20,027 bases of DNA from a virus. The position numbers and the translations under genes are program-made. Numbering within the stretch: the stretch's first letter is position 1; each line of letters begins with the position of its first letter. The notes under the pieces are model-generated. The model was given only the letters and a program-made list of their open reading frames with translations. It searched no databases and had not been told where the DNA came from. This document shows positions 10,354 through 20,027 of the stretch, piece after piece. The stretch covers positions 1 to 20,027 of IMG/VR virus record IMGVR_UViG_3300037071_000364. One strand, written 5' to 3'.

Positions 10354-11835
10354 ATGTCACAAAATCCAGGACAAGTTAGAGTCGTACAAGGTGTATTCGG
10401 TGACGAATGTACTACAACGAATGACTTAATGCAAAATCAGAATCTTAAACCAGAGGTTAAAAAGATGATGTATCACGTAGATCAACGTCAGTTATCTACA
10501 TTAATCACTTCAGGAGCAGTAGGCCCTTGGGGAGTAAACGTAACTGAATTAGAGAAATTCGGTAAAGCGCCAGACGGTACGCCAATTGGTTCTAGTTCAT
10601 TACAGTTCGCTGTACAAGGTCGTTTAGACCAAGCTTCTACTATTTTACAACAAGTAGGTGCTTCAGGAGCAGATGGTTCATTCCAATTATTACTTAAAGA
10701 CAAGTATATTTATAAAGGACACGTTGTGTTGTTTCAAAACGCAGGACGTTACTCAGCAATCTGTACTACAGAACCAGTTAAAACAGCAGGAGGTTATTTA
10801 TATAACTTCATGAATCAACAAAGTGAAGTATTCGTTTATGCTACTCATGCAGCTCCAAACGGAAACGGTACAGCAACATGTATGGCTGTAACAACTAACT
10901 ACGGTGAAGGTTCTAACAAAGGATATTCTCGTACAATGCACCCAGATCGTTTTATTGTTGATATGACTATTCAACGTAAATCAGTATCAGTTACAGGAGC
11001 AGTTGCTAATCAAGTTACTTGGTATGAAACTGAAGTAGGTGGTGAAATGGTTCGTGGATGGAAATATACAGCTATGCGTCAAGCAGAAGCGTTATTCTCA
11101 GGAGAGAATGAGTATGCTAAAATCTTCGGTGTATCTACAATGAAGAATGCTGATGGTACTCGTAGACAGTTCCCAGTAGTTCCAGATTTAGATGCTGAAG
11201 ATGGAATCATTGCAGGTGATGGTATCGAAGAGCAAATCGCTGGTGGAAACGAGATATTCGGTTCAGGAACTAGTGGAGAAGCTACAGAAGATGACTTCAT
11301 TGATATGATTAAGTTATTGATTCGTAAATCAAATTCTGCTAACGGTAAAATTAATATCGTGTTATTAACAGGTGTTGATGGATTCTTTAACTTCCAAGAG
11401 AAAGCTGCTCGTATTGCTTCTGCTTTAAACATTGAGTTTAAACAATCAGTAAACGGTGGAGATGCTAATGTAGTATCAGGAGTTACTTTTACTCAAATTC
11501 ATTATGGTGGTTCTACAATTACTTGTATGCAACATCCTATGTTTGATGACGCTAAGAAATTCTCTGCAACATCTACTATCTCAGGACGTAACATTATGTC
11601 AGGTACTTACATGGGTGGTAACATCGAAGGAGAATACGGTAAGAATATCGAGATTATCCCAAGAGGAGCGCATGGTGGTAACCGTTCAATGGTAACTGCT
11701 GATTTAAAAGGTATGACAGGAGTAGGTGCTGGTGCAATCATCACACAGAAAGATGCTGATACTTATGCAATGTTAAAAGAGGACTTAATTGTTATCTATA
11801 ACACTCAAAATTGGGCTATCTTACGTCAATCTTAA
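10354..11835 (+). CDS. Major capsid protein
   Basis: This 493-aa protein follows portal and scaffold and is followed by a strong terminator, the standard position for the main head protein. Its composition is that of a soluble mixed alpha/beta shell protein rich in Gly, Ala and Thr. Its Arg codons are mostly CGT, whereas terL and the portal use AGA more often, which fits very high expression. The A-rich leader (TTAAAAACAAATAATTATG) closely matches that of the gene at 12966. No TAnnTTTG lies in the 31-nt gap, so it is probably co-transcribed with the scaffold gene. The HK97 fold is assumed for tailed phages and cannot be proven from sequence by eye. Confidence 0.85.
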   Translation: MSQNPGQVRVVQGVFGDECTTTNDLMQNQNLKPEVKKMMYHVDQRQLSTLITSGAVGPWGVNVTELEKFGKAPDGTPIGSSSLQFAVQGRLDQASTILQQVGASGADGSFQLLLKDKYIYKGHVVLFQNAGRYSAICTTEPVKTAGGYLYNFMNQQSEVFVYATHAAPNGNGTATCMAVTTNYGEGSNKGYSRTMHPDRFIVDMTIQRKSVSVTGAVANQVTWYETEVGGEMVRGWKYTAMRQAEALFSGENEYAKIFGVSTMKNADGTRRQFPVVPDLDAEDGIIAGDGIEEQIAGGNEIFGSGTSGEATEDDFIDMIKLLIRKSNSANGKINIVLLTGVDGFFNFQEKAARIASALNIEFKQSVNGGDANVVSGVTFTQIHYGGSTITCMQHPMFDDAKKFSATSTISGRNIMSGTYMGGNIEGEYGKNIEIIPRGAHGGNRSMVTADLKGMTGVGAGAIITQKDADTYAMLKEDLIVIYNTQNWAILRQS

Positions 11836-11892: not shown

Positions 11893-12855
11893 TTATATTT
11901 GATTTAAGAACCATATTCTAGCTTTAGTGGTTATAGCGTTTTTAACTCTCTTTTCATCAAGTCCACTTTTATCTAACGTATCTTTTTCTTCTTTTAAAAC
12001 ATCGTTTACTACCCACCCCAAAAACTGTCCTGTATTTTTAGAATCAACTTCTATATTGCTCTCTTTAAAATATGAAATACCTTGATTTAATCTATTTTCG
12101 GAAACAACTGAATCAACAAATTCATTAATAGTTTCCATTAATTCTGTGTCAATTGGATTTAATACTTTGACTTTTGAGGCAGAATGCTTTTCTCCTTTTG
12201 ACTTAAATTTAAGTTCTTTATTTGTTGTACAAGTAAATACTATCCCTTCACCAACTCCGTCCTTGCCAAAGAATTTACCTACTGGACAAGATTCTTCAAC
12301 TGAAATTGTCATTTCTATGAGTTTGTTTTGAGAATATTCGGGACTGTTGAAATCTATATCTATTTCGTATGTAGGAAACTGATATATGTTATAAATAGAG
12401 TTTTCGTTATCTTTTAAGTTTTCATTAAAATCTACCCAGCAATCATCAATCATCACTCCGAAAATAACAAACATTTTAGGGACACCATTAATTGCAACTC
12501 CTTTTTGAATACTTCCACCGCACCACTCTCCGTAAATTGCAGTATAATCATCAAATGGCAAACTGAATAATGAATCTAAGTTTTTATTACATAAGGTTCC
12601 CATAAATCCAGCATTATCGTCATTTAAAGATAGGACACGTTCTCTTGATTGAAATTCAATTCTACCGTCTGAATATTTTACTATACCAGCGTTTGTTCCA
12701 TGTAGTTTAACCGTTCCTTCAAATTTTAAAGTTGGATAGTTGTCTGTGTGTGAATAAATAGCTTTTCCTTCTTCGTCTTTTCCTTTAAAGTCGTGAATAG
12801 CCTTTACTGCTCTAATTACGTTTCTGAATTGTTCAATGCTTGGGTATTTTTTCAT
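11893..12855 (-). CDS. RNA ligase, T4 Rnl2-type
   Basis: All nucleotidyl-transferase motifs are visible: motif I TVKLHGTN with the AMP-accepting Lys K50, an SRER element near residue 70, motif III IYGEW (Y108-E110), motif IIIa MFVIFGV (128-134), motif IV EGIVF (E203) and motif V LKFKSK (K216-K220). At 320 aa it is close to T4 Rnl2 (334 aa) and keeps a helical C-terminal region, so it appears complete. Such enzymes reseal nicked RNA and in phages can repair tRNA or mRNA cleaved by host defence nucleases. That role is inference here, since no kinase/phosphatase partner lies in the window. It is the only minus-strand gene, placed between capsid and later virion genes, as for a recently gained accessory gene. 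Confidence 0.93.
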   Translation of the reverse strand: MKKYPSIEQFRNVIRAVKAIHDFKGKDEEGKAIYSHTDNYPTLKFEGTVKLHGTNAGIVKYSDGRIEFQSRERVLSLNDDNAGFMGTLCNKNLDSLFSLPFDDYTAIYGEWCGGSIQKGVAINGVPKMFVIFGVMIDDCWVDFNENLKDNENSIYNIYQFPTYEIDIDFNSPEYSQNKLIEMTISVEESCPVGKFFGKDGVGEGIVFTCTTNKELKFKSKGEKHSASKVKVLNPIDTELMETINEFVDSVVSENRLNQGISYFKESNIEVDSKNTGQFLGWVVNDVLKEEKDTLDKSGLDEKRVKNAITTKARIWFLNQI

Positions 12856-15047: not shown

Positions 15048-16655
15048 ATGTTAAACCCAACAAAATCGGTATTGTTTAAAGCATCCGCAGGTACGGACGT
15101 GCAATACGTAGGAGGTGAAATTCGCATCCCAGGATTAGATGAGGCAATTCGTCAGTCTCGCATTGTGAATTTTTCACAAGCAAATTACAAGGCGGAAGTA
15201 GCACAAGTAGTAACTATTGGAGCGTCAAGTTATGCTCCAACGGCAAGCACCCGTTACATCGTAACTATTAATGACCCGAATCGTAGAGATATGGGATTAG
15301 GAGAGCAACCGTTCATCTATGCGTATGATACTCCAGATGTCATTACTAATTTAGGGGCTACGGCTGCTTTACAGCGTGAAGCTATTCATTTAGCTTTAGT
15401 TGCTAAAATCAATGCTAAATCAGCTAATCATGTAGCTGCTGCTTCTTTATTAACAGGAACAGGATTTACTATTACTGATGATGCAAGTTATTACCCAGCT
15501 CCGAGCCAAGGAATGACTAATGTTGAAGGCGCTTCTACTATTAAATTGAAAAAAGATAGCAATGGTGGTGGTTTTGCTTTAACTGACATCGCTTTAACAA
15601 CTGCTGCTTCTTATGGATTAGGTGTAGGCGCTTATTTAGCTGCTTTAGCTCCAGTAGTAGATTACACAACTGGTAACTTAATTTCAGGTGGAGTTTCAGC
15701 TCCAAAAGCTGCTGACAATACTTATGCTACAAGTGGACAGAAATACAACTTGTTCAACATCTCTTATTTATCTGATGTACAATTGCCTTTAATGGCTTCT
15801 AATTACAAAGGACAAACATTAAGAAATGCCCAAGTTTGGGTAGATAACGGTGCTGGTTCAGCTACAACTAACTTAGCTGGATATATTGCTTTTGAACGCG
15901 CTATGCACGAATCAGTATTAAAGAATTTATATTCTTCTGATAAGTCAGCTACAATTCAATTTTTCGATAAAAACTTCGTTATTCAAGGGCCATTAGGAGC
16001 TGTACCAGTTACAACTACTTCTTTGAAGAATAAGTTCTTAACTGTAGAAGGTTTAATGAATCACTACAATATCGGCACACAAACCATCGTGGCTCCTACG
16101 CAAGGTGCTGCTGGATTATTAATCGAGCAAGATGCGGCTGCAACTGAAGGAGCGCATTATTCTGCTGAAGTAGTAGCTATTTGTCCTCAAGAGTTCGTGG
16201 TAGGTAAATCAGAGATTACTTTGATTAATAAGTTCTCTGCTGGCACTGTAGCTAATATTGTTTATATGGCAGGTCTTCGTAAGAAAGAGGCTTTCACATT
16301 AGACTTTAATGATTATACAGAGATGGCTGCTGCTGGAACTGGCCCTGCTGGAACAGACTTATATACTTATGGTATTTTAGGTAATGCGGCTACTGTAGCA
16401 ACTGATTCTGGAGCTAATGCTGCTGATGCAACTGCTGTAACCATCGTTATTAAAGTGGCTATTAGTGGAGCTGTAAGTATCTATATTAATGACGTTAAAT
16501 ACCCAGTTTACTCTGTTGGTACAACTCCATTAGTATTTGCTGCTGCAACTGTATTGATTCCTTTCTTCCAATATACTAACTTAAATAGTGCTGCGGCTGT
16601 GCCAAATGTAACTGAGTTGGTTGCTGTAGGGAATGCAAACGTTTATAATTACTAA
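15048..16655 (+). CDS. Large Ala/Thr-rich structural protein (535 aa)
   Basis: A large abundant-type virion protein, rich in Ala, Thr and Val, with its own promoter octamer and terminator. Residues about 60-125 contain TRYIVTINDPNRRDMG, FIYAYDTP and ATAALQREAIHLALVAKINA, a pattern I recall from uncharacterised Bacteroidota phage structural proteins. The region 240-310 (YLSDVQLPLMASNYKGQ, then a helical AFERAMHESVLKNLYSS) seems a second domain. The last 110 residues form a beta-sandwich-like, low-charge domain. Length would suit a tail tube/sheath, a second shell protein or a muzzle-type tail component. I see no tail-sheath signature and do not choose. Its isolated transcription unit suggests that it is needed in high copy. 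Confidence 0.7.
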   Translation: MLNPTKSVLFKASAGTDVQYVGGEIRIPGLDEAIRQSRIVNFSQANYKAEVAQVVTIGASSYAPTASTRYIVTINDPNRRDMGLGEQPFIYAYDTPDVITNLGATAALQREAIHLALVAKINAKSANHVAAASLLTGTGFTITDDASYYPAPSQGMTNVEGASTIKLKKDSNGGGFALTDIALTTAASYGLGVGAYLAALAPVVDYTTGNLISGGVSAPKAADNTYATSGQKYNLFNISYLSDVQLPLMASNYKGQTLRNAQVWVDNGAGSATTNLAGYIAFERAMHESVLKNLYSSDKSATIQFFDKNFVIQGPLGAVPVTTTSLKNKFLTVEGLMNHYNIGTQTIVAPTQGAAGLLIEQDAAATEGAHYSAEVVAICPQEFVVGKSEITLINKFSAGTVANIVYMAGLRKKEAFTLDFNDYTEMAAAGTGPAGTDLYTYGILGNAATVATDSGANAADATAVTIVIKVAISGAVSIYINDVKYPVYSVGTTPLVFAAATVLIPFFQYTNLNSAAAVPNVTELVAVGNANVYNY

Positions 16656-16723: not shown

Positions 16724-17440
16724 ATGAATTTACTTTTCAAAAACAACAGATTTTATCCAGCAGTTAAAGCAATACTTTCTGGATTCAAACAAGGCGCAAG
16801 AGCAGGGGACTGTATTTTGTATGAACAAACAGTTATAAAAGATGGCAATGGTGCTGTACCTGAAGTAATTGCTTTTACGGGAGCTAATACTCATGCTGGA
16901 GCAGAAACGCATACTGGACTAGAAATCTTCTCTAATGCTTTAGGTTTAAAATCAGATATGATTTCTGAGAGAACAGCAGGAGCAGGTACTATTATTAAAA
17001 CGCCTGTTTTAGCTGTTACAGGAGCTACATTAACTGCATTAACTACACCAGCTATTTCGGCAACTACAAGTGGAACTACTTATACTTTATCTAAAGTTGA
17101 TGGTATTACTGTGACGTTACCAGCTTGTTCAGCTACGAATGTAGGACTGAAATATAGATTTGCCATTATTACATCTGTAACAAGCGTTGGTTATATTATC
17201 AATACAACTGGAGCGGATGTGTTTGTTGGAGGTGTTTGGGGAGCTATTGCAACTCCTGACGCTGCTAATGACATGAAGTTCGGTGCTTCTACTGCAAATA
17301 AAACTATTACATTAAGCGCAACCACAACTGGTGGCTTAGTAGGTGGTTATATTGATGTAGTTTGTGTATCAGCAACTCAATGGCATGTGGCTGGAGTTAC
17401 TTTAGGAACTGGAGTAATAGCAACTCCATTTAGTAACTAA
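16724..17440 (+). CDS. Fibre or decoration-type virion protein (238 aa)
   Basis: Residues about 80-92 (ISERTAGAGTIIKTPVL) are a variant of the ISExTAGAGVTIDG linker that recurs in phage tail-fibre and appendage proteins. The C-terminal domain, beginning TYTLSKVDGITVTLPACSA near residue 118, has the beta-barrel pattern seen in many phage surface proteins, in which a TLP strand is followed by GLKYRF. It is low in charged residues, with no membrane span. The gene begins 14 nt after a strong terminator without an obvious promoter, so some read-through from the 535-aa gene is likely. Decoration, head-fibre and tail-appendage roles are all open. Confidence 0.7.
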   Translation: MNLLFKNNRFYPAVKAILSGFKQGARAGDCILYEQTVIKDGNGAVPEVIAFTGANTHAGAETHTGLEIFSNALGLKSDMISERTAGAGTIIKTPVLAVTGATLTALTTPAISATTSGTTYTLSKVDGITVTLPACSATNVGLKYRFAIITSVTSVGYIINTTGADVFVGGVWGAIATPDAANDMKFGASTANKTITLSATTTGGLVGGYIDVVCVSATQWHVAGVTLGTGVIATPFSN

Positions 17441-17526: not shown

Positions 17527-17916
17527 ATGACAGCATCAGAAGCAAAACAAATGATAGCAGCAGCGCAAGCCGCTAATTCAAAACTAGCAGACAAGGTTTG
17601 CTTAGGAACAGAAGATTTAACATTAACGGCTGCGGCTCTACCATTACCTTTTACGGCATTACCTACTGGGACTACCTCAACAGATGTTGGTGGAGTTATT
17701 ATTAAAGTAAGGAAAATAGGAAGTCCGACAGATGCAACTTATTTATTAAGATATACTCAAAAAGTAGGAGATGTTCCTGTAGCTGCAACGAAAGGTATGT
17801 GGATGGGCGATGGAGATTTATTTGAGATCAACAATAATACTAACGTGGTAGCTCTTAAGCTAATAGCTACAGATGCCTTGTTTTGCACTATCACTATTGA
17901 ATATTACGGTAAATAA
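17527..17916 (+). CDS. Small beta-rich structural protein (129 aa)
   Basis: The frame is open from a TTG at 17482, but that codon sits in the terminator stem, so the ATG at 17527 is chosen. The N-terminal 20 residues are an Ala-rich helix (TASEAKQMIAAAQAAN), and the rest is a run of beta strands with few charges (DLTLTAAALPLPFTALP, VVALKLIATDALFCTITIEY). This is the profile of a head decoration or fibre-tip domain with a helical peptide. It belongs to the same short unit as the next two genes (6 nt gap, then overlap). No family recognised. Confidence 0.65.
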   Translation: MTASEAKQMIAAAQAANSKLADKVCLGTEDLTLTAAALPLPFTALPTGTTSTDVGGVIIKVRKIGSPTDATYLLRYTQKVGDVPVAATKGMWMGDGDLFEINNNTNVVALKLIATDALFCTITIEYYGK

Positions 17917-17922
17917 ATAATT

Positions 17923-18375
17923 ATGACTGGTTTCAGTAAAAGAAAAACAATATCTCAAAAAGCACCTCCTATAACTGCGGGTGAAGTTTCGAGGTGGATT
18001 AAAATTACTAAAACATATAGTGATTTTTCAACAGCGGGATTGACAAATGACATAGAGATATATTCATTACCAGCGAAAGGGATAATTCAGTCTTGTGTTA
18101 TAAAGCACACTACTTTATTTACAGGTGGACTTATTGCTACTTATACTGCTTCGGTAGGTATTAATGGCAACTTAGTTAAATATGCAGCCACACTTAATGT
18201 ATTACAGGCGGTAGGAAATACTACGTTTGGATTAGGAGCAGCTATTGTGCCTACAGTTGAAAATTTTGGAGCAGCTACTTCTATAAGAGGTTCTGTAGTT
18301 TCTACTGTAGGGTTATTAAATGCAGCTACTCAAGGAAGTGTAGATTTTTATTTATTGGTATCAACTTTGCCATAA
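17923..18375 (+). CDS. Small beta-rich virion protein with docking-type N-terminus (150 aa)
   Basis: The N-terminus MTGFSKRKTISQK shares eight of 13 residues, plus two Lys/Arg swaps, with the start of the next protein (MTQFQRKKIISQK), while the remaining sequences look unrelated. The body is beta-rich and low in charge (SCVIKHTTLFTGGLIATYT, SVDFYLLVSTLP) and looks like a single jelly-roll-like domain. Its stop codon overlaps the start of the fibre gene (TAATG), so the two are co-translated. The shared basic peptide suggests that both proteins attach to the same virion site. That is inference. No enzymatic motif is present. Confidence 0.7.
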   Translation: MTGFSKRKTISQKAPPITAGEVSRWIKITKTYSDFSTAGLTNDIEIYSLPAKGIIQSCVIKHTTLFTGGLIATYTASVGINGNLVKYAATLNVLQAVGNTTFGLGAAIVPTVENFGAATSIRGSVVSTVGLLNAATQGSVDFYLLVSTLP

Positions 18376-20027
18376 TGACACAGTTTCAAAGAAAGAAAAT
18401 AATATCACAAAAAAGCGGAAATTCTGGATTATCTCCAGTAGATGAGGCGCGTTTGGTAACATTAGAAGACAATGAATATAAAATCACCTATTTTACAGAA
18501 ATTAGCTCAACAACGGGTACAATTACAATCCCAACAGGAGCAACAATCTTGCTCAACCAATTGCAAGGAGGAATTGACGCATACGTCTCAGTTATTGAAA
18601 ACGGACAGCCTAATGGTGAATTTCCGAGAACGAGTGGTGGAGTTACAGTGGATGTCTCCAGTTTTGATGCGTTGGGGAATTATACTATTGATGGCACTCC
18701 AAGTGGTTATCCTGTTGCGTTAATTTATGTCTTAAAGATAAAAGCAAAAGATTATTCCAATCTTACAGTTGCTAATATATTAGATTTAGAAGATAATCCT
18801 CAGTTAGAGGACAGAGTTGATAGATTGCAATCTACAGGAGTAATTGATGGCGTAGGAGTTTCTATTAATGCAGATACCACTAAGTTTGATATTCAGGTTA
18901 GAGGGTGGATTATTGACCCAGATACATTTGCGCCAGAGTATATTAATGTAAACTTAACAGCTCAATCTGTAACTAATTTATCTCAAAAAATAACTTATGT
19001 TAGAGTTGAAACTGGTGGGACTGTTATTCAACAAGCAGCTCCATCTACAACAGAGCAGTTATATTCTAGTTTAGGAGAATTTGTATTAGTTCATACTAAT
19101 GGAACTAGTTTAAATGCAGTGAACAATTATCCTAATCGTGTATCTGAAATTGGAGTTCAATTACATTCTTTTATGAGAAATGTAGGGATTTTAAATTTAT
19201 CAGGAAACATTATTAGTGCTAATGGCGCTAATTTAAAATTAAATAAATCGTCTGGCGTTATGTCCAGAGTTGGAGTAGGTAATTCAGATACGGATAACCC
19301 TAATGAATTGGGGTTGGCTGCATTAACAGCGCCTAATACAATTAGATTAAGGACTCAGACTGGTACTGAAACGGCAAATACAGATGTTATAGATACTGTA
19401 AATTATGACTTAAATGGTGTAGTAACAGCATTGCCAACCGCAGCAGATTGGCAAGTATATAGAGTTAATGTATTTTCTTCTAATTTATTAAGGCTTCAAT
19501 ATGGTCAGTTTATATACAGTTCTATGTCTCAAGCTGAAGCTAGTATTCAATCTGAAGCGTTTGTTATCGAAACTAATATTAGAGAGAATGGATTGCTGAT
19601 TGGTTATATTATTGTTAGGCGCGGTACTACTAATTTAACTGATGCTAATAGAGCTAAGTTTATTCCAGCAAATAAATTCGGTTCAGGTCCAACTAGCGGA
19701 GGTGTCATTCCTACACTACAAGCTGTAATAGATATTTCTGGACAACCTCAAGGCACTATGACTGATGCTACTGGTTCATTACAGATAAACAGCACTATGG
19801 CTTCTGATGCTAGTAGATTATTTGAATGGATGTTTGGTGGTACTGCAACAGCATGGATTACAGGAGCAGGAGATTTTTTCTCCAATTCATTTAAAATATT
19901 GGGAACTGCTGGTGCAGGTTTTTTTGATATGGCAGCTCAAAGTTCAGATGCATCAGCACCTGCCGCTTCAATTAGAAGACTATTTGCAGATGCTAACAAA
20001 AGACTATCGAGTGTTGATGATGGAGGT
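18375..20027 (+). CDS. Tail fibre/appendage protein (partial, open at window end)
   Basis: The frame is open for 551 codons from the ATG at 18375 to the window edge, and the C-terminus lies outside. After the docking-type N-terminus, residues about 35-125 form a domain with TGTITIPTGATILLNQ, GGIDAYVSVI and GNYTIDGTPSGYPVALIY. A short coiled segment (LEDNPQLEDRVDRL) follows, then a long beta-rich region with FIPANKFG near 425, preceded by RLQYGQFIYSSMSQAEA from about 373. Near the edge, RRLFADANKRLS resembles the LFADsxxRLSW motif of phage fibre ends. These patterns recur in receptor-binding and baseplate fibres of many phages. It follows the small docking protein with a one-base overlap. Host binding is inferred. 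Confidence 0.8.
   Translation, partial: MTQFQRKKIISQKSGNSGLSPVDEARLVTLEDNEYKITYFTEISSTTGTITIPTGATILLNQLQGGIDAYVSVIENGQPNGEFPRTSGGVTVDVSSFDALGNYTIDGTPSGYPVALIYVLKIKAKDYSNLTVANILDLEDNPQLEDRVDRLQSTGVIDGVGVSINADTTKFDIQVRGWIIDPDTFAPEYINVNLTAQSVTNLSQKITYVRVETGGTVIQQAAPSTTEQLYSSLGEFVLVHTNGTSLNAVNNYPNRVSEIGVQLHSFMRNVGILNLSGNIISANGANLKLNKSSGVMSRVGVGNSDTDNPNELGLAALTAPNTIRLRTQTGTETANTDVIDTVNYDLNGVVTALPTAADWQVYRVNVFSSNLLRLQYGQFIYSSMSQAEASIQSEAFVIETNIRENGLLIGYIIVRRGTTNLTDANRAKFIPANKFGSGPTSGGVIPTLQAVIDISGQPQGTMTDATGSLQINSTMASDASRLFEWMFGGTATAWITGAGDFFSNSFKILGTAGAGFFDMAAQSSDASAPAASIRRLFADANKRLSSVDDGG

Follow-up and report, generated by a model that had tools for sequence, protein, structure and literature searches.

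A peptide shared by the N-termini of two adjacent adhesin genes in a distant crassvirus, and a candidate adaptor encoded upstream

RESULTS

Two consecutive adhesin genes at the end of a crassvirus DNA fragment begin with variants of one basic 13-residue peptide (here called the tag), and this tag is conserved among related phages while the protein bodies behind it change. We consider it probable, from patterns of sequence similarity, that the tag is a modular plug for adhesins and that a small protein encoded just upstream is an adaptor, with a helix that would face the virion and a body that would face the tags.

Source of the DNA. The window (the whole stretch of DNA analyzed, 20,027 nucleotides) is the 20-kb virus record IMGVR_UViG_3300037071_000364, with a GC content of 32-37%. 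To judge from its gene content, it is a fragment from a distant crassvirus, an uncultured relative of the gut crAss phages. Its major capsid protein (MCP), which we took as the backbone marker, matches Pfam PF23898 (Crass_capsid; 1.7e-12, 47 bits against a cut-off of 27) and the PHROG major head protein (1.1e-15). PHROG matches were also obtained for the portal (4.3e-42) and the terminase (5.8e-61), and the portal resembles 59 phage records, mostly of crassviruses, at 20-25% identity. Crassvirus tail ring or muzzle families (PF25702, PF24228, and PF25731) were seen in relatives; the window stops short of these genes. The 535-aa head protein encoded 5' of the adhesin cassette was not significantly similar to crAss001 gp36 by hhalign, and its profile (A7) found nothing meaningful among PDB sequences. 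The coordinates of the main features are collected in Table 1. Outside these features, an RNA ligase gene (PF09414, 2.8e-11) lies on the minus strand at 11893-12855, with the capsid gene on one side and the next head gene on the other, and runs counter to the operon direction. A 238-aa protein of unknown function is encoded at 16724-17440, after the 535-aa head gene and before the candidate adaptor gene, a place in which relatives L002 and L014 have no gene.

Table 1. Positions of the adhesin cassette and of the backbone genes used for comparison
Feature	Position	Strand	Remark
MCP	10354..11835	+	Pfam PF23898 match; backbone marker
535-aa head gene, 5' of cassette	15048..16655	+	Homologues in 14 relatives; position of crAss001 gp36 (auxiliary capsid)
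Candidate adaptor, 129 aa	17527..17916	+	N-terminal helix and jelly-roll-like beta body
Candidate adaptor helix, residues 3-17	17533..17577	+	Predicted virion-backbone plug; DNA breaks at or just after helix
Candidate adaptor body, residues 25-129	17599..17913	+	Predicted tag receptor; tag similarity tracks body
Tag 1, MTGFSKRKTISQK	17923..17961	+	Starts gA; DNA similarity to L014 stops at codon 13
gA body	17962..18375	+	Probably beta-rich; homologue not found
Tag 2, MTQFQRKKIISQK	18375..18413	+	Starts fibre
Fibre body	18414..20027	+	Cut by window end; PHROG tail-fibre matches, residues 153-465

Two adjacent genes share a start that is kept at the protein level. The tagged genes are gA (17923-18375, 150 aa) and a fibre gene whose ATG, at 18375, overlaps the last base of the gA stop codon and whose reading frame is still open at 20027. 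Their first 13 residues are identical at 8 positions without a gap (7 of 12 when Met is left aside), and beyond the tag the two bodies do not align; the shared peptide on adjacent, otherwise unrelated genes that an earlier note on this DNA had reported is thus real, and its coordinates were right. Among the 190 pairs formed by the 20 window genes, the next best N-terminal pair agrees at 3 of 12 positions after Met. A profile built from the tags of other lineages only gave the two tagged genes 10.4 and 5.9 bits, the next of the 20 genes scoring -1.2. A short peptide in a low-GC genome might in principle show such likeness by chance, but the probability of the match is about 1.7e-6 per pair and about 3e-4 over all window pairs, and independent genomes show the pattern again. 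We regard a chance resemblance of two basic N-termini as having a negligible probability, and we rejected it as refuted by conservation in relatives.

The likeness begins at the ATG (of the preceding 30 nt, only 8 are identical between the two genes), and different codons encode 3 of the 7 residues common to tags 1 and 2, which indicates that the tag is kept at the protein level. These observations bear on the idea that the shared start is mere recombination homology between adhesin genes, with no structural role. Such homology would fit the changes in DNA similarity that several pairs of genomes show at the tag (see below), but it is the residues that are conserved rather than the DNA: across type 1 tag comparisons, 18 of 49 common residues differ in codon, with Ser alternating between TCT and AGT, and diverged lineages retain the hydrophobic-basic pattern. 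A purely DNA-level repeat was rejected on the codon differences, and recombination homology as the sole explanation is very improbable.

The fibre matches PHROG tail-fibre families (2.5e-23 and 4.5e-17), and its residues 24-140 recur behind other tags in relatives. For the gA body, PHROGs, Pfam, viral contigs, and a phage collection gave no match, and the single-sequence structure model (pLDDT 42) was too poor for a fold search. The earlier description of the pair as a small beta-domain protein and a long fibre therefore holds for the fibre, whereas the beta domain ascribed to gA was not borne out by a homologue or by the model.

The tag is conserved in relatives and confined to one cassette. 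The earlier note had staked its reading on the peptide not being absent from relatives, and the relatives searched keep the tag across many lineages. When 2.9 million viral contigs were scanned for the exact motif, two further contigs came up, both true relatives; more genomes came from searches with the 535-aa head protein, the fibre, and the small upstream protein. About 25 related genomes were compared, with 25 representative genomes as the comparison set. Three extra matches obtained from viral contigs with a relaxed tag pattern were rejected; they lay inside unrelated reading frames and not at gene starts.

In these relatives the tag always starts proteins of the same adhesin cassette, and its spelling is lineage specific: MTxF..K.ISQK in one lineage, MISAIKNIKRVFSQ plus MGQSAVKNPRKIFSQ in another, and MSNSLFKKFKIFTS in a third. 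Diverged spellings keep one pattern, namely a hydrophobic residue, a basic stretch, a hydrophobic residue plus an aromatic residue or Ile, and Ser/Thr. In several genomes a diverged spelling stands on two proteins at once, as with MISAIKNIKRVFSQ and MGQSAVKNPRKIFSQ in L016 and L026, MANSLFSKVRIFTT and MSNNLFKKFKIFTS in L032, and MSNSLFKKFKIFTS and MINVMFQKRKIFTV in L055. In L002, MTNFSKKRSISQK is found on a third, unrelated body, and in L014 and L004 MTHFSKKKIISQK starts a homologue of the window fibre in the absence of gA. On two large contigs (107 and 103 gene-like open reading frames [ORFs]), exactly two genes each are tagged, with 24 to 26 bits against 5.4 and 7.1 for the next gene; on a third (116 ORFs), two tags rank first with 19.2 bits and a weaker 12.0 bits, followed by 8.1. 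The profile used on these contigs included the tags of their own lineages, so that the ranking speaks for confinement to the cassette and is not an independent discovery. The start of the L019 fibre is a poor fit to the motif, and L058 and L078 have tags that match it weakly. A gene in L064 (12367-13116; MSVFLKRLRLFSQST), about 3 kb 3' of the fibre and among small genes resembling a lysis region, possibly encodes a further tagged protein.

The tag might instead serve assembly, through co-assembly of the two proteins, as a chaperone or export signal, or as a propeptide removed in maturation, and short basic N-termini could presumably act in such ways. We consider this quite improbable. The contigs of L002, L047, and L053 show just one tagged protein, so co-assembly of two is not required; in many relatives a Gly-rich linker follows the tag, an arrangement that would suit a tethered domain; and the tag co-varies by lineage with the body of the adjacent candidate adaptor (see below).

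Adhesin bodies, and probably whole cassettes, are exchanged at defined break points. Between L014 and the window, DNA similarity stops exactly at tag codon 13, and between the fibre genes of L014 and L018 it begins at codon 24. L016 and L018 share 93% DNA identity from 5' of the small upstream protein to gA codon 20, after which the bodies are different; their fibre genes are 98% identical over codons 1-36 and then differ. L016 and L046, in turn, are similar in DNA from adaptor codon 12 onward, that is, over the adaptor body and the cassette, with no similarity detectable in the upstream genes.

L014 combines several of these exchanges. Its MCP is 89-90% identical to those of L016 and L021 and 51% identical to that of the window, and its adaptor helix is likewise L016/L021-like. 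Its adaptor as a whole is 84% identical to that of the window and 32% identical to that of L016, with both the adaptor body and the tag being window-like. Its fibre body is 70-78% identical to those of L010, L018, and L020, yet the tag in front of it is of the window type. Read from these similarities, L014 is a natural chimera of an L016-like capsid and helix, a window-like adaptor body and tag, and an L018-like fibre body. In the second lineage, the gA body is also the C-terminal domain of a collagen-like tail fibre of cyanophage S-CRM01 and is C-terminal in a virion protein of a Rhodobacteraceae phage, and in both of these it sits behind other N-termini. The earlier proposal of a modular attachment tag is thus well supported, the tag being conserved while the bodies behind it change.

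The tag co-varies with the body of a small upstream protein and not with the capsid. In 24 of the 25 representative genomes, the gene directly 5' of the first tagged one encodes a homologue of the 129-aa candidate adaptor. In the 11 genomes with an MCP, tag similarity followed the adaptor body (Mantel r 0.83; partial 0.85 given MCP) and not the MCP (partial -0.40 given adaptor body), whereas the adaptor helix followed the MCP (r 0.91; partial 0.89 given adaptor body); Mantel tests of this kind ignore shared ancestry among genomes. Across all 25 genomes the tag again followed the adaptor body (r 0.64; partial 0.66 given helix) and not the helix (partial -0.31 given body). Part of the correlation between tag and adaptor could be linkage, since the adaptor gene adjoins the first tag. 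A tendency to match its own cassette was likewise seen for the tag of the distal, nonadjacent fibre (P = 0.035 for 7 sets; P = 0.08 to 0.09 for independent lineages), a result that is no more than suggestive. The likely partner of the tag is therefore this small protein, which the earlier note had missed.

An alternative is that the tag docks directly in a conserved component of the virion, either the tail hub or a capsid hexon pocket, and that the small protein is a co-travelling appendage. There is precedent for this in crAss001, in which residues 1-26 of the fibre gp22 lie in the THA/THB hub of the tail and the N-termini of the head fibres gp21 and gp29 lie in hexon pockets (PMC10172136), and the small upstream gene is a physical neighbor of the first tag. 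On the other side, the tag does not track the MCP after correction for the adaptor body, L016 and L046 carry the same tags even though their upstream backbone genes lack detectable DNA similarity, and the distal fibre tag tends to go with its own cassette. We judge direct docking to be unlikely.

The candidate adaptor gave no clear match to a known adaptor in profile and fold searches. An AlphaFold2 model of the protein (pLDDT 82.5) has a helix at residues 3-17 and strands over residues 25-128. Its profile (A8) found nothing meaningful among PDB sequences, PHROGs and Pfam gave no profile match for it, relatives sought in bacterial and archaeal genome contigs were not found, and hhalign comparison of its alignment with crAss001 gp38, gp39, and gp22 was not significant. 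Fold searches gave common jelly-roll or cupin-like matches only (best Z 7.9); the best Foldseek match, a Bacillus Ena pilin at 4.3e-3, was not taken as evidence. Profile and fold searches together thus gave no sequence match or clear fold match to any known adaptor. Comparison of the relatives' THA-like and THB-like alignments with crAss001 gp38, gp39, and gp22 by hhalign was not significant either, and the corresponding profiles (A10 and A11) found nothing meaningful among PDB sequences. In L021 (9671-12211), an adaptor-type helix (QETVALIRAIKESDK) directly starts an 846-aa protein, which looks like omission of the adaptor step.

DISCUSSION

We favor a mechanism in which the N-terminal helix of the adaptor would anchor it to the virion, more likely at the tail than at the head, and in which its jelly-roll body would hold the adhesins by their basic N-terminal peptides. 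A protein of any kind with the right peptide could then be mounted, so that bodies might be replaced while the tag stays, and entire cassettes might cross between capsid lineages by alteration of the adaptor helix only. Since both carry the same peptide, gA and the fibre would use the same plug and sit at equivalent sites, where they might compete or alternate as the earlier note suggested. The most complete form of this proposal is a two-tier plug-and-socket arrangement, with a helix matched to the capsid lineage, a body matched to a lineage-specific tag on several adhesins, bodies and cassettes that move, and two adhesins sharing equivalent sites; we would give this full version an even chance of being correct.

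The principle of docking through short N-terminal peptides is already known. In phages K1-5, K1E, and SP6, the adaptor gp37 is associated with a heptapeptide (MAKLTKP) and an undecapeptide (MIQRLGSSLVK), according to the account in PMC6872550 (citing Leiman et al. 2007). There, as in the system proposed here, very short N-terminal peptides mount exchangeable receptor-binding bodies, the small adaptor being a candidate in our case. In K1-5 and SP6, however, two proteins use different peptides at two sites on a T4gp10-like adaptor, whereas here the same peptide stands on both proteins, and the candidate adaptor, a 129-aa helix plus jelly roll, has no detected relation to gp37. A T4gp10-like domain or T7-type anchor sought in the candidate adaptor gave no profile match, and the jelly-roll model gave weak fold matches. 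Klebsiella phages of the KP32, KP34, Menlow, and PhiK64-1 groups carry a group-specific "conserved peptide" on secondary receptor-binding proteins, as presented in PMC6872550; these peptides, like the tag, are short and N-terminal (theirs down to seven residues) and stand on variable bodies. According to the same source, the Klebsiella bodies are depolymerases that attach to another receptor-binding protein at its T4gp10-like domain, and the portion of that source drawn on here describes no adaptor whose two ends follow different parts of the genome. The phages studied here resemble crAss001 in having a crassvirus-type virion and fibres that would be held by short N-terminal segments, but the crAss001 fibre N-termini are unlike the tag, and the candidate adaptor has no crAss001 counterpart by sequence. 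Open-access titles and abstracts yielded no description of one peptide on two adhesins with an adaptor whose ends follow different partners in crassvirus relatives.

Little is known of how crassviruses, which are abundant and for the most part uncultured, recognize their hosts. A recognizable tag should allow adhesins to be found in metagenomes even when their bodies are unknown or unrelated, should predict which proteins have a common particle site, and provides a natural test of the exchange of receptor-binding parts among phages. The proposal that the two ends of the adaptor evolve with different partners likewise makes a prediction on virion architecture that can be tested.

Several other peptides were likewise seen at the start of more than one protein. 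A second shared peptide (MSSRFGSRTDSGIIRDFIES / MSNIKFGLRTRKGLIRPIIES and similar) starts other protein pairs in the same cassettes (L056, 13168/14223; L040, 3009/4097; L079, 5585/6557) and is probably another docking tag. In other phages encoding the same fibre domain, neighboring proteins share still other N-termini (MSQLISLTATQR..., MLVTDYRVKKDLTDFAQF..., and M.AGTG..QS; L044, 4375/5545; L039, 2836/4769; L027, 5138/5956). Finally, small and probably nonstructural genes share N-termini (MEKKQTAVEWLYERL and MTPKEKAMELVDKF) that are apparently unrelated to the adhesin tag; in record coordinates, these are at 1388-2652 in L085 and 86298 in L089 (record G003), and at 45756/46923 in L083 (record G001).
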